A DNA stretch of 64,000 bases from Physcia stellaris (taxonomy: Eukaryota; Ascomycota; Lecanoromycetes; Caliciales; Physciaceae): NCBI GenBank assembly GCA_018902385.1, contig JABSSW010000008.1, positions 558,001-622,000 on the forward strand, read 5' to 3'. The notes beneath the pieces are model-generated. The model was not told the origin of the DNA and searched no databases. It saw nothing but the letters and a program-made list of their open reading frames with translations. This document shows positions 1 through 52,577 of this stretch, piece after piece. Both the position numbers and the translations under genes were made by a program. Numbering within the stretch: position 1 is the first letter of the stretch; each line of letters begins with the position of its first letter.

Positions 1-911
1 GACGGAGCGGCGGCCTCGCGGGTCGCGAGGTAGGATCCCGCTTGGAGAGGCGAGAGGACAGACTCGGAGCGGCGATGAAAAGAGTAGAACGGTGCCATAG
101 TTCGGGGAGATTGAAGGCAAGGCTTCAAGGTGTTTTATTGGGCCGAAGCCCGATTCTTCAGAGTCGGTCCCTCTCCCAAGACAAAGATTCTAAGCCGATT
201 TGGAGTTCGCTATGATGTGCGCTCGCCTTAATTTAGGATTATTGACTGATGGACATTAGAATGGAGACGTCGTTAAGGAGTGGAATGTTTGGCGGTAAGA
301 CTGTCGAATGCAGTGTCGTCAATGTGGTGGTTGGGGTAATGGCTGGGGTTGGGATCAACAAAGCGTTGACCAGGCAACAAAGCTCATCGCCTGACTTTCG
401 ATACAATCCACCGCTACGTTGGGTCTCTGAAGTGAACGATCGTCGCCTCCTTCGTGTTCACATACTAAATTTGGAGAAGAGTGAATTCAGAGAGACAACA
501 AGTGGCTTAAAGAAATGCGACGTCTTGCAGTTGGCTCACATTGTTCTGTTTTGTCCAACCGAGTGACCTGGTTCAAGCAATCATCGTTGTTGAAGCTCGT
601 TATCGACTATGCTAATTTACCCCATCCTATCTTCCTATCCCATCCTATGTAGAGCTCATCTGAACTTTGTAGAGGGGATATATCTGCCAACTGTCTACTC
701 CCCGTTCCGCCTGATACCTACTTCGTCGCTCATACAGTCGTAAATCGTACACATCAGGTCCGAGCTTTCCACCGGGCATTATGCTTTTAATGGCATTTTC
801 GTCAAAGACCCACCACTCACACCTATAAGCGAGAACCGAAATTTATAACCTAGAAGTAAAGTCGCCACAAGCGCTGCGTAATTCATTTCGTCGTCATCGG
901 AATGTGCATCT
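1..911. other. intergenic, no gene recognised
   Basis: This is the 3' flank of the minus-strand gene that ends at 912. A 105-codon open frame on the plus strand (249-566) has no recognisable domain and no fungal start context, so I do not call it. I see no RNA gene or repeat. Confidence 0.5.
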
Positions 912-2897
912 CTAACTTCGCCCGCTCCTGCTGCTCCTGCGGCTTCGACTCACTGCAACTCTTTTCTCCGCCGCTCGGCTGCTCTCTCGCGTCCTTGGTT
1001 CTCTAGTCGATCTTCTCCGGCCACCTCCGGCTTCCAATTCTCGAGTGCCGGAACTCTCAACATAGGTATATCGTTTCCGACCCTTCTCCTTCATTGAAGA
1101 TCTCCTGCTCACTACGCCACTCTTCCCACCAATACCCAAAACCATATCACCTTCATCACCATCATTACTGGGCCTGAGGCTGATGGTTCGCCCTTTGATA
1201 CTTTCTCCTTTGAAATCGACGTTAACCGCTTGCGATGCATTGAACCGCATTGTCAGACCATCCGTGTCATTCCTGGGTTTGGAATCGCTCCCACCTCTAC
1301 GGTCAATTGAGCTTCGACCTTTGTCTTCACTACTTCTCTTACTGCCTTTGCTCTGAGCGCTGAGCCTAGTGCCTGTCTCGCTGCTCGAGTGCGCCTTTTT
1401 CCGGACGAGGTTCAACGAGTCGGCAGTCAGCGGTAAGGCAGTACTCGTCCCAGTCGAAGTTTGGTAAGCCTCGACTGAGCGCTCTAGATCGCGCGGTGAT
1501 TCGTGACCATAATACGAAAATGGTCTCCTTTTCTTCGCCGTGGCACTGTTACTTTCAATGCTCATGCGGCGCATATCTCTTTCGATGGCATGAGAACCAG
1601 AACCTGAATTGTTACTAGAGGACGCTGAAGGTCTCGTCGTGACAGTCGGTCGCTGAGGAAGTTCTGGGATATGTGCTTTGGTTTTGACTGGGCTTTGAGG
1701 AGGTTGATATATGTCTGGGTCGATGTCGGTGCGGCTATTGCGGCGTTGCTGGATTGCGGCATGCGCTACCGAAGTAGTGGCAGCATGACGAATAATTGGT
1801 CGTTGTGTTTGCTGCCTGGGTGGTGGAGGCGGTGGAGGTGGCATTCTGTAATAATCTTCGTCGTGTACATAGTGTTCTTCACGCGGAGGATGCGAATAGC
1901 CTCTTTGAACGGAAGTCCGGCGGATAGTAGGCTGAGATGGAATAGAGGTGGCATAATGAGGTTGCTGGAAATGTTCAATCACTGGAGCAGCGCTGTACCT
2001 GATAGAATGTCTCTGGGGTGCGGGCTGGTCAGACTCCCACCATCTTAAAGGAGGGCATCGATCCAGAGGTGACGGAGGGGTAGAGTATGGATACGGACCG
2101 TGCTGGACTGGTGCACTAGGGGCGAAATAAGAAGGCGCAGGTTGATGATACGGTGTCGGTGGAAAAGCGCTCGGAGGGGTCATTGTAGGCTGAGCTTGGG
2201 CTAGATATACTGGCTGATATTGGACCTGAGGTGGAAATGAACCCCCATGGAAGCTGGTTGGCCGTTGCCTTTGTTGAGATTGTGCGGTTATAGGTCGAGG
2301 ACGAGCCTGCGTCGGTAGTGCGGGCGGCGCTTCTGGCGGAGAAAAATGTGGTACAGGTTTTGTAGAATGGGGCCGTTGAGGTACTGTTACTTGTGGCGGA
2401 GCTTTTGAGGTTGGCCTGGTAGCATCGTCTTTGCTGGACCTGGATATTTCTGGCGATTTGGTGGCATCATATCCCTTTGCTGTACATTCGTTGCACCGAC
2501 ATTCCTGCTGTGCTTTCTGCCCTTTTTCTTTTGCCCTCGAGTCCGTCCGTCGCAAGGTGGGTTTCCGCACCGTCTCTGCGCTATGAAGCTGTTTTTGGTG
2601 AACAGCGCCTGATCTTTCTTTGACATGAGAGACATCGGTATTGATCCTTAATGGGGCTGATCCTGCCTTTGAATCTAGCGAGGAGTCTCCGCTACCCAGC
2701 GTCGCTCCAGTCCTACTCGAGTAACCAGAGTCACTGAACTCGTCATGCGCAGCAGTCACGGTCGGCTTTACAATGTCCGGCTTCGACCTTTTGGCGGTGA
2801 TGTTGGCTGTTTGGCGGGTCTCGGGGAGGGTTGTTTTGGCATCCTCATTGTAGTCCTCGATGTAGGCGGCGCGAGGGCCAGTCGGGCTGCCTGACAT
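912..2897 (-). CDS. large disordered proline/serine-rich protein, function unknown
   Basis: Single-exon frame of 661 residues starting at an ATG (2895-2897). Nearly the whole protein looks intrinsically disordered. It has a Ser/Gly-rich N-terminal stretch containing DSGYSSRTGA (about residues 56-65), a CRCNEC cysteine cluster near residue 134, a long Pro/Gln/Tyr-rich middle with a run of eight prolines (about residue 355), and an Arg/Ser-rich basic tail. The only part that looks folded is near residues 550-600 (MRFNASQAVNVDFKGESIKG followed by RTISLRPS), which resembles a short beta-rich module seen at the end of many uncharacterised Pezizomycotina proteins. No catalytic motif is visible. The poly-Pro and RS-like segments could serve as scaffold or nucleic-acid contacts, but that is inference. 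An extra 5' exon cannot be excluded. Confidence 0.75.
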   Translation of the reverse strand: MSGSPTGPRAAYIEDYNEDAKTTLPETRQTANITAKRSKPDIVKPTVTAAHDEFSDSGYSSRTGATLGSGDSSLDSKAGSAPLRINTDVSHVKERSGAVHQKQLHSAETVRKPTLRRTDSRAKEKGQKAQQECRCNECTAKGYDATKSPEISRSSKDDATRPTSKAPPQVTVPQRPHSTKPVPHFSPPEAPPALPTQARPRPITAQSQQRQRPTSFHGGSFPPQVQYQPVYLAQAQPTMTPPSAFPPTPYHQPAPSYFAPSAPVQHGPYPYSTPPSPLDRCPPLRWWESDQPAPQRHSIRYSAAPVIEHFQQPHYATSIPSQPTIRRTSVQRGYSHPPREEHYVHDEDYYRMPPPPPPPPRQQTQRPIIRHAATTSVAHAAIQQRRNSRTDIDPDIYQPPQSPVKTKAHIPELPQRPTVTTRPSASSSNNSGSGSHAIERDMRRMSIESNSATAKKRRPFSYYGHESPRDLERSVEAYQTSTGTSTALPLTADSLNLVRKKAHSSSETGTRLSAQSKGSKRSSEDKGRSSIDRRGGSDSKPRNDTDGLTMRFNASQAVNVDFKGESIKGRTISLRPSNDGDEGDMVLGIGGKSGVVSRRSSMKEKGRKRYTYVESSGTRELEAGGGRRRSTREPRTRESSRAAEKRVAVSRSRRSSRSGRS

Positions 2898-4495
2898 AAC
2901 ACCCTGTAGGTAGCCAACGTGGCGACAGGCCAGGGCGGGTTTGCTCCAATTGTAGCGCTCGAGCGACAGGTAGAAGGCAAGTGGGACAGGAGCGAAGAGC
3001 AGTCCGGCAACTTTTTGGCAGACTCGGCTATCGATAAGCCGTCGATCAATTGCCCCACCTTTTAGGCAGACGGGATGATCTCCAGCAGTCAGCGAGCTGG
3101 GATGCTAACGGACTCGAGGCGCTGACAGTGACAGCGCGGGGTAGATGGCAGAAGGACGGTCGACGAGATCGGAGGTGGCTACAGGTATGAAAGGAAAGGG
3201 TGTAGCGGGACAACGGTCAGACAGGCCAGCACCGATCAGCGATCTGGATGTCCATTGATGCCGGCTGGGAGCTGCCAGCGACATGGTTAGAGAGTGTTGG
3301 AACGCTTCAGAGATGGACTGACTCACATCTGCTCGATCCAAGAGATAGTTGGAAAATTAATATGAGAAAATGAAGTTTTTTAAGGTTGTGATCGGTGATG
3401 GTTGCTGGGAGGCTGCATGGGTCCGGAGCTGGTTGGTCGTGGGCGTCCTGCTGTTCAATCATACGCCAGAATCCTTCTGCTAAGCTGTCTTCGGGCCCCA
3501 CACTCCATAGGTCGCCCGCATTGCTGCACAACATCAACCACCAGAGTCGGGCCCCAGCATCAGTCCTCCCCGAGGCAACTATCGCTTTTGGAAACTGCCA
3601 TTCGTGAGTGTCAACGGGAACAGCGAGTAGAAACATCGGCTTCGTGGAGAGTACGAGTGGTACCTGGCAAGAGGAGTCGCCCATTGGATACCCCATCCGT
3701 CATGGCTGCCTGAGCAGCGCAACATTCCCCAAGTTGCAGATATATCATTCGACCGCTCCTTTCGCGACAGGATAGTGACGCACATGGATGAATTGGATGG
3801 TGGACCGGCCGTTGCCATGCTTCACAGAGCACTGTCAGCGGTGCAGCACTATCCACCTCACTCCTGCATTGATAGGTTAACGTTGACGCAGGCGCAGACG
3901 TAGTTCAAAAACATGCAAGTGTAGGACCAATGACTGCCGGATTAGATGCAAAGCGTCAAACCTTGACTCGAATTCAGCATCGCGCTGGCATCATGCTGGC
4001 CCTATCGTCCTTGGCCGCTGATCACATGCCGTGCGGACGATGAGAAAGAGCGACAAGCTGCACGATTCGACACGAGCTTGCGACTCGGCATCCGACCGTA
4101 TGGCTGTGCTTCTTGCATGGCAAATCTCATTTAGTGTGGAACATTGACCTTCATGGCTGCGTCTTACATATACACACGATCAGACTTGAGAAACGCGCCA
4201 TGTGAGATTTCTTTCGCGCGAGAAATCGCTCTGGTATAAAGAACAAATGATTAGAGTACATGCTGGATAAAGATAAGCCTAGCGACTTACCGTCCAAAAG
4301 TCAGCCACATTAATGCTTTACACCAATCGGCGAACATGAAGAGAAGACTTCGTACACGGGACATACCTCGGTCCGTTCTTGGCATCACGGACGAAGACAC
4401 CATGAGCAGAGACAACTATTCTCTAAGGTATATGTGATGGGCTAGGAGCCTTGGTAGATGCCCTATCTACTATTGCCGCAAAGCATTTTCCCACA
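2898..4495. other. intergenic between two minus-strand genes
   Basis: 1.6 kb covering the promoter/5' leader of the disordered-protein gene and the 3' flank of the arginyl-tRNA synthetase gene. Several short overlapping frames (3105-3856) lie on both strands, but none has a recognisable domain. I see nothing else. Confidence 0.5.
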
Positions 4496-6602
4496 TCACA
4501 TACTAAACATAGTCAGCTTCAAGTCGTTATGGTAAAGAGAAAAGTATCAGATACTTACCGCTCCACTGGATTGAGGCCTAGAAGTCTCATCCCGTTGTGC
4601 AGAACTTGCCTCGCCGCTTCATACAGAGCCATCCTAGCTTTCATTACCTCCCGCTCACTACCAATGACTTTCAGCACGTCATAGCTTGAGCTCAGCATGT
4701 GCGTCATCTTGAACAAATACGAGAGTACTGTGACGGGCTCCAAGGTTTTCAGGGTATTTTGGACAACATCTGGCCACGACGCCAATGCACGCACAAGGTT
4801 AATAGCGTGGGGCTCCGTCAATAAAGATAAATCTGCCGACTCGATATCCTGGGGAGACAAGCCGGCCTTCCTGCTGATGGAGCACAGACGAGCGTGTGCA
4901 TACTGTAAATACGGTCCAGTGTCTCCTTCGAATGAGGTCATTCGTTCTAGCGAAAAATCGTAGTTGTTGATCCTAGCTTCCAGATTAATCTTCTAGCTGG
5001 AGATGAATAAAGGGTGATATTTTACCGTTTCCCTGTCATATCTTGCACCATAACCGCCGTAATTCCTAGAGTATCCGCAGTTTGTTCGGGGTTTTCAACC
5101 TGGTCATACTTTGCTTGATTTGCCCTCATGACCTCGTGCATTTTATCACCCACATCTCGTAAGATGTCGTCCAAGAACTTGACTGTTCCTCTCCGTGTAC
5201 TCATTCCTTGGACCATACCGAAATTCACATGCTGACATTTGTCAGAAATGTTCTGAAGACCCATGAGTTCTAGAATTTTGAAGAGCTGTGCTAGATGGAT
5301 GTCCTGTTGGGAGGCAACGACATATATCATCTTGTCGAAGTTGTAAAGCTCATTTCGCTTCACAATCTCCCCAACATCCCGGGTCAAGTAAAGGGACGAA
5401 CCGTCGGTTTTCTTGATGAGTGCTTTACCGAGTTTCCCGGCGCCATGTTTGGTGAAGTCAACGATCACAGCGCCCTTGGAGTCTTCCGAGATCCCGCGAG
5501 CTTTGAGTATGTCGGCGGCCTTCTCCATCCGTTCCATCTCAACTTGGGATTCACCTGAATAGTGGTCGTAATGTATATTCAGGCGCGCGTACGTTTGCTT
5601 ATACTTTTGGATGCTCAGATCTCGGAAGCGACTCCACGTAGCACGGGCCTCTTCATCGCCATCCTCTAATCGCTTGAAGTACTGTCTTGCCCGTTCGTTC
5701 TCACTTTTCGATTCCAATCCGGCAATTTCGTTCTCCAAATCTTGCGTCTGTTGGCCGGCTTCTGTAGCTTGTTTCAGCTCTTCTTTCTTTTCCTTGATCA
5801 AAGCTTCTTGCGGGCTTGAAAGTTTGTTAATTTCGACGTAGATATCGAATAGATGGCCTATGGGATCTCTCTCCAAGGCCTCTTCGCTACCATACATCTC
5901 GAATGCATTAGCGAGCAGACCGAATTGTCGTCCCCAATCGCCAAGATAATTCATCCGGATCACCTCCCATCCTGCGGCCTCATAGAGATTTGCTAGGAAA
6001 CCTCCGATAATGGTACTTCGCAGATGACCGGCATGAAAAGGCTTCGCAATATTGGGTGAAGAGAATTCGACGATTATGCGCTTTCGCCCTTTAGTTGGAT
6101 CGGACTCATCGCGCAGTCCTAATTTCTCGTTGGTCCCATATGCAGCCTTCTTTGTCAATATTGAGGGAATGATCAATTTTGTGAGAGGCTCAGGCTTGAA
6201 GAAAAATTGTAGAAAAGGACCGGCTGCAACAGGTTTTGCAACGATGTTTGACTCAGGAAATTGTTCGCTCCACTCAAGGGCTTGCTCCGCGGGTTTCTTC
6301 CCTTTAATCCTCAATGAGGCCACTGCGAGACCAAGGTCGCCTTTGTCGAAAGTTTGCGTCCAAGCAAGTCGCTCGTAGACTTCTTTTACTGGCTTTCCCG
6401 TGATTGGGGCCAGCGCTTGGGAGATACTCTCGCGGTACAAGTCGACTGGGTTATTCATTGTTGATGAGCCTGAGCCATCAGGTGTGTTATGCAGTGAGGC
6501 CATCAATGCTTTACGCTGCTTCTGGTGACTGATCTTGCTGAATGGTAGTAGACAGCTCAGCGATATGGAATACCTCCTGAAAGTCAAGGTACAATGAATC
6601 AT
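4496..6602 (-). CDS. arginyl-tRNA synthetase (class Ia), 3 exons
   Basis: Charges tRNA-Arg with arginine. The exons read as 6602-5026, 4972-4559 and 4502-4496, giving 665 residues from the first ATG or 632 from Met34 (6503). Visible in order: the Arg_S N-terminal domain, the HIGH-type signature FSSPNIAKPFHAGHLRST (HAGH at 190-193), the catalytic core with an acidic/coiled insert (EKKEELKQATEAG), MSTRRG in the KMSKS position, and after the first intron INNYDFSLERMTSFEGD and the anticodon-binding domain ending LLGLNPVERM. Both introns split an Arg codon (CG|G and CG|T). The last exon is only T-ATG-TGA and supplies the family-typical final Met. Residues 1-33 are rich in Arg/Ser/Leu with no acidic residue, so they may be a mitochondrial presequence, with Met34 giving the cytosolic form. 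That dual use is inference; a TTTCAG just upstream of codon 12 could instead mark a 5' intron. Confidence 0.93.
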
Positions 6603-39389: not shown

Positions 39390-39477
39390 AACTGCAGACA
39401 GTCTCTAATTGATCAGAGGACTTCGCTTTTTGATCAACTCTATCTACCGGGCTCAAATTAGAGGGATTGCGATTACG

Positions 39478-41436
39478 ATGGCGGGCAGCATTCTTGCCGA
39501 ACACCAGCCACTGTACTCCTTGCCACAGGAAGTCTTGAGCCAGATTATCGACTACCTGCCCCAAAGCACTCGTCTCACGCTTATGCAAACAAGTCGCTCT
39601 CTGCGCCTTTGCCCCGTCTTAGTACGTTCCATGTACGTTGAGCCAATTTCAACGGCGGATTTTCCCACGACCCCGGCAAATATGTTGCTCGACGTCCCAT
39701 CGCTACTCGGTAACCCCTTTATTACCGGTCTACATGAGCGGACTAATGACTGTGAAGACTTCATGAGCTTGAAAGGTCTGACTGGACTCCGGGACGACCG
39801 CTATCTTAGCTCCGCTAAGTGCAAGGCAATATGCGATTCTATCGACAGAGATACAGGAGTCTACGTCAGACACCTAACAGTCCCTTATTTTATGTCTCTC
39901 GATTCAATACGGCCTTTCGCCAGAGATTGTCCAAACATCGTGTCACTGGATCTGGCAAATCAGATCAGATTTGACCCACTCGATTGTCATTACCGCGGCT
40001 CACACGTTAATTGGCCTGCAGGGACAAGCATCGGTTGGAAGGCGATTGTCAAGAGATATCCCGAACTGTTCGAGCGCCTGATGACCATCAAGGTGTCCGT
40101 TGCCGGTCTCGATATGTCTGACAACTCTAATTGCGATGCATTGACTTCGCTACTTAGGTCGACGAAGCGACTCGAAACTCTTGAGCTTCAAGGTCGATCC
40201 GAGCTTCATAACATATCCTATTACGAATTTAACGAGCCAAGAGAATGCCTGAAGTTGATAAAGGTACTGAGGACTTACACTGCAAAAACTCTGAGAGAAC
40301 TTCGACTAGATCGTATGCTTCTTTCCATTGGGAGTTTGCCGCTACTTCTTCGGAGAATGTCAAGAGATTTTCCAGAGTTCAAGAAAATCTCGCTATCTGT
40401 CGACTACGATTTGAAAATGGTCAGCAACCTCGACGAGTCATCTCCAAGTCGTTATGAGTTCAACCAGGCTCGAAAAGGCATGGGGCGAACAATACCTTAC
40501 ACTTGCTGGAGCTATATCCGAATGATCAAAGCAATCAGCCAACACGAAACAGCTTCCAACGTCCCACGATGGAACCTCACAGCTATGGACAACCATGATC
40601 TCACGCTTCGGGCGCAAGATTTGTTTGATTATGATTCTGATCGTGGTCAGATGACATCGGAATCAGTAGAGCTCCTCAGATGGCTCAAGCAAGACTTGCG
40701 ATACACGCCTAAGTTCACTTGGTCTCTAGAGAATAACAATCTAGGACCTCACCAATACACTCCATTGCACTTAATCAATGAAATGAATCGGCAGAGAACT
40801 TTCGAGCTCTGCGAAGAGCTGTTCCAAACGCTCAAAGCCGCCGATATACCAATCAAGCTTGAACTGTCAACAGAAAGCCAAAAAGTCTCAAAACCTGGCA
40901 AATCCTCCTTCTTCCTTCATAACTGGGTCCCACAAACCAAAGACGCAATTTACCGAGAATCATTATCCAGAATAATGTCCTCAGGAGAAGGAACGTGGCA
41001 GTGGTACCTTCACGGCATCGGAAGCCATGTGGACCACCTGAAAGTAATGTGGAGCCACGCATTCCTCCGCGAGCCCTTCGACATGAGCATGAAGAAGCAT
41101 CGCAAACGCAGGCGTATGGGTAGACCTGCAGGTTACTGCTTCGATCCCCGTCCACAGTCGGAGCGTGCGGACGAGGAGAAAACTTCCATCCAGCCGATGT
41201 GGGATGATCTCAAGAACGACTTTCCGAACCTCAAGCGACTCGAGCTGCGTGTTCCGGCACTGGTGTATCTTGGCGATGACGCTTTCCTCGAAGACGTATT
41301 ACCTGGCACAGGTTGGCAGTTACAACGAGGCGATGATGTCGTGGTCAAGGATTATAGACAGTGTGAGGGACTCACACCGCAAGCTGATGTGGTGTTCTTA
41401 GATCGTACCTTTTTTAGGGAGGAGTTCTCTGCGTAG
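39478..41436 (+). CDS. F-box protein, large fungal paralog A
   Basis: 652 residues, one exon; the frame is open further upstream (39409) but without an ATG. The F-box is at about 10-50 (LYSLPQEVLSQIIDYLPQST, LTLMQTSRSLR), which would bind Skp1 in an SCF ubiquitin ligase. The rest is a long leucine-containing region without sharp repeats (VRHLTVPYFMSLDSIRPFAR, KRLETLELQGRSELH, TLRELRLDRMLLSIGSLPLL), presumably the substrate-binding part. The C-terminal third contains WDDLKNDFPNLKRLELRVPA and GDDVVVKDYRQ. It is clearly paralogous to the gene at 50226-52391: both have TCWxYIRMxKxI, ERAxEEKxxxQPxW, FPNLKRL, YLGD and VVKDxR in the same order. The copia fossil begins 277 bases past its stop. Confidence 0.87.
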   Translation: MAGSILAEHQPLYSLPQEVLSQIIDYLPQSTRLTLMQTSRSLRLCPVLVRSMYVEPISTADFPTTPANMLLDVPSLLGNPFITGLHERTNDCEDFMSLKGLTGLRDDRYLSSAKCKAICDSIDRDTGVYVRHLTVPYFMSLDSIRPFARDCPNIVSLDLANQIRFDPLDCHYRGSHVNWPAGTSIGWKAIVKRYPELFERLMTIKVSVAGLDMSDNSNCDALTSLLRSTKRLETLELQGRSELHNISYYEFNEPRECLKLIKVLRTYTAKTLRELRLDRMLLSIGSLPLLLRRMSRDFPEFKKISLSVDYDLKMVSNLDESSPSRYEFNQARKGMGRTIPYTCWSYIRMIKAISQHETASNVPRWNLTAMDNHDLTLRAQDLFDYDSDRGQMTSESVELLRWLKQDLRYTPKFTWSLENNNLGPHQYTPLHLINEMNRQRTFELCEELFQTLKAADIPIKLELSTESQKVSKPGKSSFFLHNWVPQTKDAIYRESLSRIMSSGEGTWQWYLHGIGSHVDHLKVMWSHAFLREPFDMSMKKHRKRRRMGRPAGYCFDPRPQSERADEEKTSIQPMWDDLKNDFPNLKRLELRVPALVYLGDDAFLEDVLPGTGWQLQRGDDVVVKDYRQCEGLTPQADVVFLDRTFFREEFSA

Positions 41437-41713
41437 ACGATTCGCTCTAGTTTAGATAATATACTTGTACTGTAGGCCAACTACGGTTGCTGAAGTTTTC
41501 TGATTGTTTTGCGATCTCACCCTATGACTTTGACAGAAGGTGATCTTCAATGTGCACGTGTAGGGCCGATTTCGATGTTGCTCTGGCTCAAGAAATATGA
41601 CGCCCTCATCTAGGTACATCTTTTTAGCTTTTTACACCTACTTCCTACTGATGGAATCCTACGAACGTCCTCCTTTTCGTGTGATTATATCGGTGCATTG
41701 GGGGTAACCAAAG
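41437..41713. other. 3' flank of F-box gene A
   Basis: Normal base composition right up to the target duplication CAAAG (41709-41713) of the retroelement. No gene. Confidence 0.6.
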
Positions 41714-41857
41714 TGTAGAACTAGGTGGCCAATCAGGGACCGCCAAGAGCTTAGTAACTAGTGCGCACTTCAATGACATTAGATGCTAAAAATCATGTAA
41801 ATTAGCATTTCATAGAACAACATACAATCAATGATTTATTTATTCAGAAATTTTACA
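41714..41857 (+). repeat. 5' LTR (144 bp) of the copia fossil
   Basis: Same length as the 3' copy. Its outer ~96 bases have normal composition; its inner ~48 bases carry the mutational pattern of the element's interior. Confidence 0.92.
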
Positions 41858-44800
41858 ATTATGAATTCGAATCACGTTTAATTGTTGCATTCAATACGTG
41901 ATTTATTTGATTATCAATATTTTCAACATTCGATTGTTTCGACAAATTAACACGAAAAATCAAAACATCGCGAAAACATTTTCTTGTTTACATTTTTTTA
42001 CAATCAACAACAATCAAAATTTTTTTTTTATTTATTCGTTCGTTTAGCACGATGACGAATACGAAACGAAAATTCAAATTGAATTTTTTCAAAAATTGAA
42101 ACGCGTGATTTTTGATCGTACGAATCAAAATCACAAAATATTCGATTTGAAATTTCATCGATTCATTCAACGATACTAAATCAATAAAAAAAATTGAATT
42201 TTTAAAATTCAATTTTGACACACAACAAAATGCGAATTTCAACGAAAAACATGCTCGATACAAAATAACGACATCGAAATACAAAAAAAAATTTCAAAAT
42301 TGAAAAAAACAAAAAAAATTCATGACAAAAATAATCGATCACATTTACGATACAACAACGATTACAAATTTCAATTTTATTCAAATCGTTGAAATTCATT
42401 CATGAATCGTTTTTTGCGTTTTCAAAACACGTTTTGCATTCATCGATTCGATTAAAAATTTGAAATTAAAACAAAAATACAATCGTTTGATCAAGAATTC
42501 ATTCAATCGTCAAAATATCGATGTTTGAATAAACGATTATTTGAAAATGTTGACATTCGTTAAACAAACAAAAATTGTTGAAATCATCGATAACAAACGA
42601 ACGTATCGTGATTTTTTACACGCAATCGACAAAATCGCATTTATTTTCGTTAAAATACAATTATTTCAACTAAACATTGTAACGAATCACGAAATTCAAT
42701 TTTTCATTTTTATCGAAATTTTTCGACATCACATGCGCATGAAAAAAATTCGAAAAAAAAAAAAAAACGATATTCAATTCGACATTCGTTATTGACGAAT
42801 GCAATTATACAAATCATCGAAATCATTTTAACATTTCGTCATTTCGAAATCAAAATCAGTTTCGAAATTTTTGCATTTGCGAAAAAAAACATTTTTACGA
42901 CGATTGTTTTTATTTTAACGAAAAATACGTTCAAATGATTTCAAACTGAAATCAAAAATCGTGATTAAAATAAACGAAACGAAAAAAATTCAAAAAAAAA
43001 AACAAATAAAACAAAACATCAAGCGAATTGACGAAAAACGTCAAAAAAAAACGATAACAAAAACACAAAAATCGAAATAAAATTTTTCGTCGTTATTCAC
43101 GTCAATGTCATAAAATCGTTTACAAACGACTCGTTTTCGTCAAATTATTTTTTTCGTTCGTCGTGAATTATGAATTACGATTTCGACATTTACGTGATCA
43201 ACAACACAATGAAACAACGTTTTCAAAAAAAACGAAATTGCATAAACGAATCGAAAATTATGTTCGACATGAAATTATTTTTTATTTTGACATATGATCG
43301 AATGCGTATTAACGTCGATACGTTCACAAAAAAAAATCAATGAAATTTTTAAACGTCAATTATGTATCAGATTTCATGATCAATATCGTCGCGAAAAACA
43401 TTTTCGCAAACAAAAAATTACATTTTGATACAATTCATAAACATTTGCACAAAAACGATGCATCGATCGTTTTCGTGTCACGAATAAAAGCACATTACGT
43501 TTTCGAAAATAATAAATTTGAAAAAATAAACGTTTTCGCAATCATCGTGCGACAAGAATTTATTTTGAAATAATATCAATTTTTCGTTCATGCAAATAAT
43601 GACATCATACAACATTTACAAAAAACAATTGAAAAAATAAAATTCATTAACAAAAATAAAATGTCACTAATTAACAAATGCGAAAAATGTGTTTTTTTCA
43701 AAATATATCGAATTGTATTCAAATTTTCTGTAAAGTCAAAAATTTCGAACAAATCGTTTTATCGTATTACATACGATTTCATCGATATGACAACGATTTT
43801 GAACAAACACAAATGAATATTACACGTGACATGTTTCGAAACAAATTTTCACATGATATACACGCATGAAAACAAAAAACAAATTACGAAAATATTTATT
43901 CGAATCATTCACATCATCGAAATCAAATACAACGACAAAATGATATTTGTACGTTTTGACGACGAACGCGCGCTAAACATTGTTTAAAATAATTATTGTA
44001 CATTCAAAAACATTACATATGAATTTTCGATCGTTAATATTTCAACACAAAACGATCACAACGAACGATTAAATGACATATTGTTGATCAAATCACGAAC
44101 AATAAAATTCGAAACAAATTTATTTGTTTATTTATGATCGTGAATCAATGAAATCGCTGATTACATAATGAATCGTACATTTTTCAAAAAGCATGAATGA
44201 AAAACATCGTTCGAAATGATTATCGACAAAAAATCGAATTTTGTTCACATCGTTCAATATAAAACAAAAGCATATTTTTTGAATAAAAATATTTCGAAAA
44301 AAAAAAAGATGAAAATCAAAACACACATCGATTTTTTTGTAAATTATGACAACATCAATATTTTTTTAATTTGAATTTTTAGTCAACGAAAAATTATACG
44401 TACACGTGATGTCACATTCAACGAAAATTCACGTTATCGTTTTAATGAAATAAATTTAATTCAATTCGTCAACGAGTTTTTTTTGATTAACGATACGTTT
44501 GACATATCACGAAACGATTTCACGAAAATAATGAATATCGAATCAAACAACGACGAAAATGTATGAAAATTAACATTTACAAAATCTATTATCGATCGCG
44601 ATGCAAAGAAATTTCACAAACAAACAATTGAAAACGATTTTGAATCAAAATATTTATTTTCATTTGTTTCATTTTCGTCAAAAAATGAAAACACGTCAAA
44701 TACGTTTGATTTTTCGTATTTTTCGTCATTTGTCGTTACAAAAAATTTCTTGTCATTTGTCGTTGCAAAAACAGTAAAAAAATTATTTTCATTTGCATCG

Positions 44801-46711
44801 TCGTTGAAAGAGAAAAAATCGAAACATTGAACGAAAACAACGATTGACGAAATCAATATTCAATTTGAAAAATTCATTCGCATTCGCAAATCAAATTCGT
44901 TTCGAAATTTCAATCATTATATCGTTTTAAAAAATGCATTCGCAAAAAAAATGCGTTCATTTTATGAAACATTTATGATTTCATTCACGAAAAAAAAATC
45001 ACATCGTGACAATTTTTTCGTCGAATTACGTTTTTATTATCAAATGTTCAAACATTTTGAAATCGTCGATTTTTTACGAATCATTGACGTGAAAATCAAA
45101 ACATTACAATCAAAACAAATTTGAAAAAAAATTTCATGAAATCATGTCAAACAAACAAAAAAAATTTTTATATTTATCACATGAATATTCAAATACAAAT
45201 TCGACAACGAAAAATATTTGATAAAACACAAAATTCGATTGTGTATTCGAAAAAATTTTCAACAAATCGAACAAAATGTTTACGCAATTACATTAATTAT
45301 TAAAATTTTTCGAACATTAATGATCATAATTACAATTTTCGATTTGAACATTCGTCAATATGACGCAATCAATGCATTCGCAAATAACGATATCGACGAA
45401 TTCATTTATTGCAAATCGTTTGACGATTGAAAAAAAACAAACAATGTGTTATTTTTTTTATTGAAAGCATTTTATGAATTGAAATAATTTTCAACGTTAT
45501 GATATCGTCATTTATCGATCATTTTCAACAATTTAAATTTAAAACAAATGTCAAACATCGAATGTTTATTCATCAATGATTATATAATTTTATTTTTTTT
45601 CGTGAACGATATAGCAATTATGTATTATTTTCAATATTTCAAACAAATCGACGTTTTCGAAAAAAACTTTTCGAAACATACGAAATGAAAAACATCGATA
45701 AAATCGAATGATTTTTCAATATTCGCATTACACGCGATAAAAAACAACAAATAACATCGTTTTGTTAAAACAATTATATCGACAAATTTATCAACAAGTT
45801 CAACATTGATATGATCAAAAAAAAAATCAAAATCGTTTATATTCATTCATATTTCGATGATAAAAAATGAAAATAATGTTATTTTTCAAAAAATTCATAT
45901 GTATCAACAAAAAATCGAATTTGTCAATTTCGTTGCAACAACAATTCGATCAAATGTAATCGTTGCAATCTCGATATTATTTGAATATTTTACGAATTCA
46001 TTTAAACATCATACGAAACAAACGATTCGAACGTTAAAATATTTAACACACATCAAATATTACGTCATTGTTTACAAAAATCAAACAAATTATACAATCA
46101 TTATTTTTTTAATTTCGTCAAATGCGTTATTCGCAAACGATTTAAACATTCGTCAAAATTTAAATGAATATTGTTTTATGTTTTTCGACGATTTTATCGA
46201 TTAAAAAATCACAAAACAAAAAACAATCACAATTAATTTTATCGAAATCGAATTGTTGATTATGTCAATAACGATCAACATCAAAATGTGATAAAATCGT
46301 TTTTTTGAATCAATACAAATGAACATGAAAAAATTCATTCACATTCAATGCGATAATCGTCAAATTATACGAACGTTTATTATGTCAACGATCAAATTAA
46401 TCATTAAATTACGTCATGTCGATATACATCGTCATTAATTACGTCAAAAAATGCAAAAAAACACGATCAACATTCAATGAATTTTTACAACGAACATTTT
46501 GATCGACGATTTCATCAAAACTTTATCATTTCAAAAACAAAAAACATTCGTGAAACTGATTGATTTAAAATTTATTTCGATATCAAAATCGAAAAAAAAC
46601 AAAAAATTCGATCAATCAAAAATCGAATAAATCGCATCATGAATCACATCGAAAAATGAATAAAACATCAAAAATAAAACGAAATATCAAATATTTTTTT
46701 TTAAAAAAATG

Positions 46712-46855
46712 TGTAAAATTAGATGATCAATCAAAAATCGCCAAAAGCTTAATAACTAGTGCGCACTTCAATGACATTAGATGCTAAAAATCATGTAAAT
46801 TAGCATTCCATAGAACAACATGCAATCAATGACTTACCTATCCAGAAGTCTTACA
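46712..46855 (+). repeat. 3' LTR (144 bp) of the copia fossil
   Basis: Mirror image of the 5' LTR in damage: its inner ~41 bases are mutated and its outer ~103 bases are not. It is followed directly by the CAAAG target duplication. Confidence 0.92.
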
Positions 46856-46860
46856 CAAAG

Positions 46861-50099: not shown

Positions 50100-50265
50100 T
50101 TTCCATCTAAGAATGTGAGATCCCCCTGGCGCTTCATGACTTCCATCCTCCGATAGTCCTTGACAACAATCGTTAGTCAAATGTTAGCTCTCCACTCCGA
50201 TTCTGGAAGCATGCTGGTCACGGTCTCATCGTAAAGGTAGACTTCCGTGGGGATATGTAGATTGA
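50100..50265 (-). pseudogene. truncated duplicate of the F-box gene 3' end
   Basis: On the minus strand this segment encodes a diverged copy of the C-terminal ~55 residues of the neighbouring F-box protein: LNLHIPTEVYLYDETVTSML, PESEWRANI, then (after a stop) LTIVVKDYRRMEVMKRQGDL. The gene's own version is LNLHIPDYLYLGDETMICLL, PESEWKLDI, MVVKDHRRKDGIKRG. The copy lies head-to-tail right after the gene, and the gene's final ~15 codons are read in another frame from the copy. This points to a partial tandem duplication or to recombination with a third paralog. Confidence 0.75.
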
Positions 50266-52391
50266 GCCACTCTGTCGAATTTTCGGTCAAAGAAGGCGAC
50301 TTCCCTCCCGCGTTTTATGCCGTCTTTCCTCCGGTGGTCTTTGACGACCATGGTTTTATTTTTTCCAATGTCAAGTTTCCACTCCGATTCTGGAAGCAAG
50401 CAAATCATGGTCTCGTCACCAAGGTAGAGATAGTCGGGGATATGTAAATTGAGCCGCTTTAGGTTGGGGAACGTTTGCGCCAAGTCAGTCCAAAGCGGTT
50501 GCATCTTCTCTTTTTCTTCTTCGGCGCGCTCTGTATGGGGACGTTTGTCAAACTGTGCTCGATGATTACAGGGTATAAGCACGTTATCCTCATAGCAGTT
50601 CACAGGTTCTTGCAGGAAGTTGTTTCCCCATTTGACGGTGAGTTCATCGACCAGATCACCATTCCAATCAAGGTACCATTGCCCAGGACCAGACTCCAGG
50701 AACTCTTTAAGTCCGCACTCTTCTTCTTCAGGTGCGTTATTTCTTTTTATGCACCGGTAGGTTCGGGTGTAAAAAGTTCCGGTATCGCCATATTGGCTTC
50801 TGTCATACCAGGGTGTCGTTGCCAGCATGAGCTTTACTGGGATGCCACTACTCTTAAGATCCTGGAATAATTCTCGGCATAAGTCGAGCTCCTGACGACG
50901 AATGTCTGATGTCATGTTGCGAAGAGAGTTGTGACTCCACTCCATCGTTTTTATATCATGCATTTGGTCGTACCAGTTGAACGTGGGTGTCCACTGGAGA
51001 GTCTGGCTGAACCAGCTGAAGATCTCTCCCCCGGGAAATGCATCTTTAGACCTCTGATTATCTTTGACAGAGAAGAAAGCTCGTGGATTGATTTCGTATA
51101 TTTTATCTGCTTTGAGACATTTGAGTGATGACGTCCAGCGGGGATCGTCGCAGATTCCCTTCAGCATCCGGATATACTCCCAGCAAGTCGACGGCGTTTC
51201 TCGGATCAAATCATCCGACGCCGGGTCCGGATTTTCGTCCCAAATATACCGAGACTCGTCCACAATATCCAAACCCAACATTTGTAGGTCTTGATCGATT
51301 GAAATAGAGATATCGCGGAGTTGAGGCAGAGCTTCTTCTAGTTCGTTCAGAAATGTATGATAGTTGCGGATATTGTGAAACATTCCGTCAAGTTGGAGCT
51401 CGGTGAGCCCTTTCGGAGCACTCGTAGCCAAGACATCGGCCAAAGCGAACGCAAATTCGGGGCCATTCCATGTCGAACCGCGCCTGTATAGCGGTGGGCT
51501 GTGAATATGGAGACATTTCAGATTTCGTGTTTGGCCGAGCAGACCAGCTAGATTTTCCAAATTCCAGCCATCATCGAAATCGCTACCCTCACCAAGGCAT
51601 TCAATCTTTATCGATCGCACATTGAGAAAAAGATCTTTACAGTCATCTTCCAAAAGCTCATCCCAGCGCAGTTCGAAAGGATGTTCAATACTGGGATTCT
51701 CCGATTTGGACTTGGGCTCAGGGTGGTCGATCGGGTGCATAAGACTCATCAGGTCCAGGAACTCGATATTGTGACAGTGCTTGGCGTACGGCAGTATATC
51801 GGTAATGGTAAGGAAGTCCGGTATGACTAATCGCTTCACATACGAGCCAAGTTTAGCATTAAGCTTTCGTCTGATGACACTGATAGTATGAGATGTAACA
51901 TATTTCTCATCTCGTGTGTCTCTGCGTCCCTTCTGGCTCAACACGTCATCACATAGCCCAGAGAAGTCGCGACGAATGTCCTCTGCAAAGCCCCAAGAAT
52001 ATCCTTCTTGACCGTCGAGAACACCGGTGTCGTACCTCAGCTCAAACAGGTTCAAGGGGAAGTCGGCCAAGCAAATGGGCTCTGTGAACAGATCGCGGGT
52101 TACCATGTGATTATATTTAAAGCCATGACAAGTATCCGACAGAGCTAGCAGACTGTTCCGAGACAGATTACGAAGAATCTGTGCGAAGATCTCTGGTGGT
52201 ATTGTGAGCAATGGCGGACAAAAGTCCTTCAGGCGCTCCTTCTTGCGGATTCTAGCTGGAGCACCTGCGGTGCCAGATGTTTGCTGGGCTTCAGTGTATT
52301 CTTGATGCCGTTCTTTGTCCGAAGGCCATGTCTTCATCGCCTTGCGTTCTTTTGCATACAGCTTCCGCCTCGCGCTTCTAGTTAGAACCAT
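50226..52391 (-). CDS. F-box protein, large fungal paralog B
   Basis: 721 residues, one exon from the ATG at 52391. The basic N-terminus (RSARRKLYAKERKAMKTWPS) may carry a nuclear signal. The F-box is at about 60-95 (LTIPPEIFAQILRNLSRNSL, LALSDTCHGFK). The long C-terminal part matches paralog A in motif order (ETPSTCWEYIRMLKGI, ERAEEEKEKMQPLW, TFPNLKRLNLHIPDYLYLGD, VVKDHRRK, FFDRKFDR). The predicted role is a substrate receptor of an SCF ubiquitin ligase; the target is unknown. The natural end of the family is near FDRKFDR. The extra tail VAQSTYPHGSLPLR comes from reading into the truncated duplicate downstream in a foreign frame, so the C-terminus is probably novel. Confidence 0.87.
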   Translation of the reverse strand: MVLTRSARRKLYAKERKAMKTWPSDKERHQEYTEAQQTSGTAGAPARIRKKERLKDFCPPLLTIPPEIFAQILRNLSRNSLLALSDTCHGFKYNHMVTRDLFTEPICLADFPLNLFELRYDTGVLDGQEGYSWGFAEDIRRDFSGLCDDVLSQKGRRDTRDEKYVTSHTISVIRRKLNAKLGSYVKRLVIPDFLTITDILPYAKHCHNIEFLDLMSLMHPIDHPEPKSKSENPSIEHPFELRWDELLEDDCKDLFLNVRSIKIECLGEGSDFDDGWNLENLAGLLGQTRNLKCLHIHSPPLYRRGSTWNGPEFAFALADVLATSAPKGLTELQLDGMFHNIRNYHTFLNELEEALPQLRDISISIDQDLQMLGLDIVDESRYIWDENPDPASDDLIRETPSTCWEYIRMLKGICDDPRWTSSLKCLKADKIYEINPRAFFSVKDNQRSKDAFPGGEIFSWFSQTLQWTPTFNWYDQMHDIKTMEWSHNSLRNMTSDIRRQELDLCRELFQDLKSSGIPVKLMLATTPWYDRSQYGDTGTFYTRTYRCIKRNNAPEEEECGLKEFLESGPGQWYLDWNGDLVDELTVKWGNNFLQEPVNCYEDNVLIPCNHRAQFDKRPHTERAEEEKEKMQPLWTDLAQTFPNLKRLNLHIPDYLYLGDETMICLLPESEWKLDIGKNKTMVVKDHRRKDGIKRGREVAFFDRKFDRVAQSTYPHGSLPLR

Positions 52392-52577
52392 AATGACGGA
52401 TGATGGTCTCTTGTTTTGTCAGATGCCTTCTTGAGTATTGAGTGAATTGTTAGAAAAAAGTATGGTGTAGCAGTGTTCAGGGTAGTTGAATCGCTTGTTT
52501 TCTTCCACTTGGAACCGTGATGAGCGAAAGCAATGATACTTATGAAGGGTGGTCAATTATCCTCTTCTGGGCTTCCT

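Follow-up and report, generated by a model that had tools for sequence, protein, structure and literature searches.

What kind of mutator removes cytosines that precede another pyrimidine from a retrotransposon and leaves those that precede a purine? The question is raised by a 64-kb window of the Physcia stellaris genome (positions 558,001 to 622,000 of contig JABSSW010000008.1 in assembly GCA_018902385.1, which has 44.0 Mb in 147 contigs; "the window" denotes this whole stretch), in which a full-length copia-type long terminal repeat (LTR) retrotransposon has almost no CpC or CpT on either strand. The depletion is a real, repeat-directed mutational signature, confirmed in every hypermutated stretch that was examined. 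Its best reading is a new variant of repeat-induced point mutation (RIP) with the order CpC > CpT >> CpA, CpG, nearly opposite to the preference usually met in fungi, and the mutator is probably a C5-methyltransferase of the RID family with an altered preference for the 3' base. The parts of the window element are as follows, with the basis of each assignment in brackets.

41714..46855, + strand: full-length copia-type LTR retrotransposon copy (family read from the unmutated L032 copy)
41709..41713, no strand: left target-site duplication CAAAG, unmutated (edge comparison)
41714..41857, + strand: 5' LTR, TG...CA, 144 bp, assigned changes confined to LTR positions 97-139 (LTR-pair alignment)
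41714..41809, no strand: left outer rim, spared, 96 bp (LTR-pair alignment)
41810..46752, no strand: hypermutated core, CpC/CpT almost gone on both strands, CpA/CpG retained, GC 25% (composition and alignment)
46712..46855, + strand: 3' LTR, 144 bp, assigned changes confined to LTR positions 5-41 (LTR-pair alignment)
46753..46855, no strand: right outer rim, spared, 103 bp (LTR-pair alignment)
46856..46860, no strand: right target-site duplication CAAAG, unmutated (edge comparison)

Dinucleotide densities on both strands of positions 41810-46745, divided by those of the 58.8 kb of window flank, are 0.0018 for CpC and 0.060 for CpT versus 0.92 for CpA and 1.09 for CpG, which bears out the original prediction, made from the letters alone, that C in the element stands almost only before A or G. 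The GC content over the same positions is 25.1% versus 48.6% for the remainder of the window, in which a scan for depletion of CpY (Y, pyrimidine; R, purine) picked up no further depleted stretch. The two LTRs of one element are identical at insertion; those of the window element differ at 19 positions, all C-to-T or G-to-A, of which 18 are in CpC or CpT context and one in CpA, exactly as had been counted by hand, with eight changes assigned to the 5' LTR and 11 to the 3' LTR. Within-element LTR pairs of seven full-length mutated copies hold 115 transitions, 112 at CpY and three at CpR, together with 10 transversions or indels (71 bases were aligned for L029 and 121 for L028, and one CpR case, in L026, lies just beyond the LTR).

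The direction and context of each change can be read against a barely mutated copy of the same element, L032 (C7:884001-894000). A scan of the L032 reading frame, cut into three pieces, gave matches to RVT_2 and a retroviral SH3-like domain, with gag_pre-integrs under the cut-off, and the element is therefore assigned to the copia type; its 5-bp target duplication is complete at both ends of the window copy. BLAST with L032 returned full-length relatives in the window and seven other stretches and partial relatives in the remaining twelve, and L013-L031 and the window, 20 sources in all, were each aligned to it over their best-matching stretch. In the table pooled from the 19 mutated copies (the unmutated L031 was excluded) over element positions 200-4950 on both strands, C has become T at 5546 of 5795 CpC sites (96%) and 5860 of 6894 CpT sites (85%), versus 868 of 7552 CpA sites (11%) and 461 of 6721 CpG sites (7%); loss of CpC and CpT is thus far stronger than loss of CpA. 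The same alignments give background rates of 481/11866 (0.041) for T-to-C, 247/16730 (0.015) for A-to-G and 0.020 per site for transversions (1130 in 56089 sites). The two strands are mutated to the same degree, and the 5' base is nearly irrelevant, with mutated fractions of 0.94-0.985 across NCC and 0.82-0.88 across NCT. The window copy alone has 575 C-to-T and 629 G-to-A changes versus 41 T-to-C, 17 A-to-G and 89 transversions, so that C:G to T:A transitions predominate on both strands, as in RIP. The least mutated of the 19 copies, L029, has lost 0.87-0.89 of CpC and 0.51 of CpT, with 0.05 for CpA and 0.03-0.07 for CpG, which argues that CpC is mutated before CpT. Neither this order nor the sparing of the outer part of the repeat had been part of the original prediction. 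Nine less mutated copies gave no evidence of long single-strand mutation tracts (lag-1 same-strand correlation for CpT, -0.24 to 0.18), and window correlations between their strands are mixed (-0.21 to 0.84). There is also a weak second-order effect at CpA in the pooled table, with 0.15 for CAC/CAT and 0.07-0.08 for CAA/CAG.

The mutation is tied to the extent of the repeat, because its rate tapers inside the edges and the left flanks are undepleted. Across up to 15 copies compared with L032, the mutated fraction of CpY rises from 0.13 over the outermost 50 bp at the left edge through 0.40 at 50-100 bp to 0.76 at 100-150 bp; it is mostly 0.8-0.98 in the interior (lowest bins, 0.62-0.68) and drops from 0.83 to 0.57 toward the other end. 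Among 16 copies, CpY stands at 222-239 per kb outside the left edge, at distances up to 800 bp, and at 20-42 per kb inside the repeat beyond 100 bp from that edge. In the LTR pairs of the other copies, excluding L029, the distance of the outermost assigned change from the edge is 37 to about 129 bp on the left and 22 to about 87 bp on the right. The mutation is accordingly limited to duplicated DNA with its flanks spared, the data for the right flank coming from the window copy. The window element is flanked by F-box-type reading frames at 39409-41433 and 50229-52418, the latter under the Pfam cut-off.

The same signature occurs outside the copia family. Ten depleted segments lacking a copia match were picked by hand (shorter ones in L017, L021, L022 and L028 were left out); relative to flank, CpC stands at 0.005 (0.00-0.01 by segment), CpT at 0.20 (0.05-0.44), CpA at 0.90 (0.79-0.99) and CpG at 1.19 (1.03-1.34). 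These are fewer than ten families, for L013, L014, L016 and L025 have sequence in common, and L018, L043 and L019 likewise, and eight of the ten sit in stretches that also carry the copia element. One of them, L043 (C56:210001-212000), is a further hypermutated repeat; it has no fewer than 39 other near-full-length copies, 91-96% alike (40 were scored of 394 candidates), and between it and its relative in L018 there are 76 CpT, 17 CpA and 14 CpG transitions and 13 transversions. Among 20 sampled 2-kb stretches, 17 of the 160 250-bp windows are CpY-depleted, and inspection by eye found CpA loss in none of the 20, L041 being only partly depleted. The ordinary CpA-biased RIP that would have contradicted the original prediction was thus not encountered: the other depleted stretches examined lose CpY, not CpA.

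A displaced relic of a ribosomal DNA (rDNA) unit, L057 (C41:45899-46052 and flanks), with pieces of 18S, 5.8S and 28S, carries the signature as well; it is the sole match listed in a 5.8S search of the assembly. Scoring was done in twelve rows, at neighbouring positions that are upper-case in the Rfam consensus, with cut rows and ends and the variable part of the large subunit omitted. Relative to the consensus, 28 of 34 CpC, 17 of 36 CpU, 1 of 32 CpA and 0 of 34 CpG are changed, and if one poorly aligned row of the small subunit is set aside, the counts are 27/30, 17/33, 0/27 and 0/34. Because the Rfam consensus is an external reference, the direction of change is fixed from outside the genome; and because the relic bears the same signature, the target is not specific to transposons. 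A repeat other than a transposon is therefore affected, as in RIP, on the evidence of this one relic.

Candidate enzymes are present. A search with PF00145 gave four matches in three genes: a DIM-2 relative, L010 (C3:338823-342998; E 2e-181 to PDB 9bap), and two divergent RID-like methyltransferase genes, RID-A (L009, C6:791557) and RID-B (L011/L012, C5:498855-499792), which resemble each other (39% over 195 residues and 34% over 149). The assignment of L009 and L011 to the RID/Masc1 type is based on domain layout, mutual similarity and motifs, without a tree; both have a PPCQ motif and EET/EQT in motif VI, presumably RID features. The reading frames of RID-A, RID-B and the DIM-2 relative are open over the catalytic region, short introns of L009 and L011 having been read by eye. 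The top PDB match of the RID-B frame, M.HaeIII (GGCC), is a general methyltransferase similarity from which nothing is drawn. A Pre-SET protein with a SET motif recognised by eye (L058) is also encoded. The original prediction had pointed to a cytosine mutator that prefers a following pyrimidine, or a lineage-specific version of RIP or of DIM-2-linked mutation, and the CpY context together with these genes supports it, the identity of the acting enzyme being inferred.

The proposed pathway begins with duplicated DNA, whether retrotransposons, other repeats or a displaced rDNA unit, which would be recognised through its homology, presumably in the sexual cycle. C before a pyrimidine would then be converted to T on both strands, CpC first and CpT next, with CpA and CpG almost exempt, by a mutator confined within the repeat and weakening toward its edges. 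The mutator would most likely be a RID-family C5-methyltransferase, encoded by one of the two RID-like genes, whose preference for the 3' neighbour has shifted to pyrimidines. C5-methyltransferases read the 3' neighbour and AID/APOBEC enzymes the 5' neighbour. A C5-methyltransferase acting in RIP is indicated by the specificity for the 3' neighbour, the action on both strands, the confinement to repeats and the near-saturation with few other changes.

There is a real but small chance that the enzyme is instead the DIM-2 relative, which would methylate CpY in heterochromatic repeats or mutate it directly, perhaps while the fungus grows vegetatively. The gene is in the genome, Neurospora DIM-2 methylation prefers CpT according to a 2026 review (PMC13297926), and Dim2 promotes CpA mutation in Zymoseptoria tritici (PMC8016269). 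In an alignment of L010 with Neurospora crassa DIM-2 (chain number = residue + 2, anchored on catalytic Cys 926), five of nine target-recognition positions are kept (R1145, T1164, T1166, T1167, D1173) and four differ (K1143 to Ser, T1144 to Phe, N1170 to Ala, R1175 to Ile); N1170 and R1145 are reported to contact the +1 flanking position and R1175 to intercalate (PMC11315935). The differences are a lead only, coming from a single pairwise alignment, and may be normal for the lineage. No spread is seen in the left flanks of the 16 copies, however, and the same review assigns new euchromatic repeats to RID and older heterochromatic ones to DIM-2, in a window with no other depleted stretch; the absence of spreading and the role of RID at new repeats are the reasons for preferring RID.

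Passive decay, in which CpC and CpT are methylated and then deaminate slowly and spontaneously, is unlikely as the cause of CpY loss. Loss of CpG in other genomes is usually explained by such decay, and C5-methyltransferases are present in this genome. CpG-type methylation decay itself is not seen in the core, where CpG density exceeds that of the flank. Against passive decay at CpY, about 95% of CpC in the window copy is changed (about three hits per site) versus 26 gaps and 89 transversions in 5.1 kb, a ratio greater than 100; the taper inside the repeat edges also points to a homology-limited process. An AID/APOBEC-type cytidine deaminase, or an editor that acts on the retrotransposon as it is reverse-transcribed, is still harder to credit. 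C-to-T hypermutation of retroelements resembles APOBEC action generally, but here the strands are equally affected in the window copy, the 3' base decides and not the 5' base, and the rDNA relic shares the signature, which disfavours any editor linked to reverse transcription. The original prediction had also looked to unusual cytosine deaminases: the genome has no match to APOBEC_N, the single Pfam family of the AID/APOBEC group that was searched, and PF00383 has 11 matches at nine places, of which the four examined look by eye like dCMP, RibD-type (two) and Tad2-type housekeeping deaminases. With no 5'-neighbour preference, no APOBEC_N match and an affected rDNA relic, the APOBEC reading is rejected. 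A compositional or assembly artefact, for which nothing speaks except the low GC of the region, is practically dismissed by the site-by-site C-to-T changes relative to unmutated copies in the same assembly and to the Rfam consensus.

Several observations weigh against RIP by a RID-family enzyme as set out above. CpA is mutated at 11-12%, which exceeds background, so that its exemption is not absolute, and CpG too lies somewhat over background; in the window copy the counts are 84/696 for CpA and 46/577 for CpG, versus reverse rates of 41/1100 for T-to-C and 17/1527 for A-to-G. The original claim that CpA and CpG are spared thus holds as a strong tendency (92% and 109% of flank) and fails as an absolute. 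L032 and L031 (C8:896001-906000) are barely mutated and yet 5-6% apart, which implies that escape from mutation exists, for some time; C/T differences between them lean to CpC in one direction (CpC 37, CpT 22, CpG 18, CpA 15) and to CpG in the other (CpG 30, CpC 20, CpT 17, CpA 13). Right flanks are known from the window copy alone, and repetition is established for only some of the depleted segments, L038 and L041 not being among them. Two RID genes are not unusual: Anisogramma has two, and five of the species in Amselem 2015 have one or two. RIP is defined by experiment, through its loss in a rid mutant, its premeiotic timing and the de novo mutation of a duplication in a cross, and the present reading is drawn from sequence. 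Finally, because CpT dominance is reported in ordinary RIP fungi, what is unusual narrows to the CpC-first order and the exemption of CpA. On balance, these data still favour a lineage of filamentous ascomycetes whose RIP has a reversed catalytic specificity. Its enzyme, of the RID family or DIM-2, would need a pyrimidine on the 3' side, attack CpC first and leave CpA and CpG exempt, so that its relics are negative by CpA indices.

Until now RIP has been regarded as targeting CpA, and CpT or CpG secondarily. The usual indices follow from this view, canonical CpA-type RIP being called at TpA/ApT of at least 0.89 and (CpA+TpG)/(ApC+GpT) of at most 1.03. The window core gives 0.44 and 1.34, and L038, L041 and L043 give 0.38-0.45 and 1.14-1.64; because the core misses both thresholds, it is scored as unmutated despite its depletion. 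With 17 of 160 sampled windows hypermutated and both indices negative on the four stretches tried, genomes may be wrongly filed as free of RIP. The strict switch at the 3' base, with two RID-like genes and a DIM-2 relative, offers a handle on the chemistry of RID, an open question, and the spared rims may serve as a measurable trace of repeat recognition.

Published contexts of RIP are varied. In Trichoderma reesei, CpA and CpG lead and CpT is over CpC (PMC5496416); a RIPCAL alignment of Neurospora Tad1 has CpT exceeding CpA, and Stagonospora nodorum repeats have lost CpA, CpC and CpG (PMC2621366). A 2021 survey found CpT-to-TpT dominant among RIP-capable fungi (PMC7882544), Monilinia has CpA changes plus CpC-to-TpT double changes (PMC8959702), and the ten genomes of Amselem 2015 have CpA, CpT and CpG signatures, with CpT solely alongside CpA (PMC4352252). 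No description of CpC-first, CpA-sparing RIP was found in the portions of the literature searched, which did not extend to Clutterbuck 2011, the main survey of RIP contexts.

Compared with these systems, the RIP-like mutation of Microbotryum is alike in being C-to-T in transposons in a strict context and unlike in its TpCpG/CpG target, its Masc2-type enzyme and the absence of any RID-type gene found there, as described in PMC4352252, whereas CpG is kept in P. stellaris. Dim2-dependent mitotic mutation in Z. tritici is likewise methyltransferase-linked C-to-T, but CpA-specific (PMC8016269). The CpT-biased families of Colletotrichum truncatum (PMC6180176), Nalanthamala psidii (PMC8914235) and Anisogramma anomala (PMC10998396) share the common CpT-to-TpT change, but their TpA/ApT is raised to 0.93-1.7, versus 0.44 here; the CpA index reported for N. 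psidii is 1.3, versus 1.34 here, and that of C. truncatum and Anisogramma is low for the most part. Botrytis cinerea, Sclerotinia sclerotiorum and Magnaporthe oryzae also have CpT among their targets and one or two copies of RID-family genes, but they have a CpA signature too and no CpC among the signatures listed in PMC4352252, whereas in P. stellaris CpA is kept and CpC goes first. RID-dependent RIP of N. crassa is alike in its C-to-T changes on both strands, its confinement to repeats, the presence of a RID homologue and its action on rDNA relics (PMC5555474); the two differ in order, for in P. stellaris, where genes and relics make up the evidence, it is CpC > CpT >> CpA, CpG, and in N. 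crassa it is CpA > CpT > CpG > CpC (PMC5496416).

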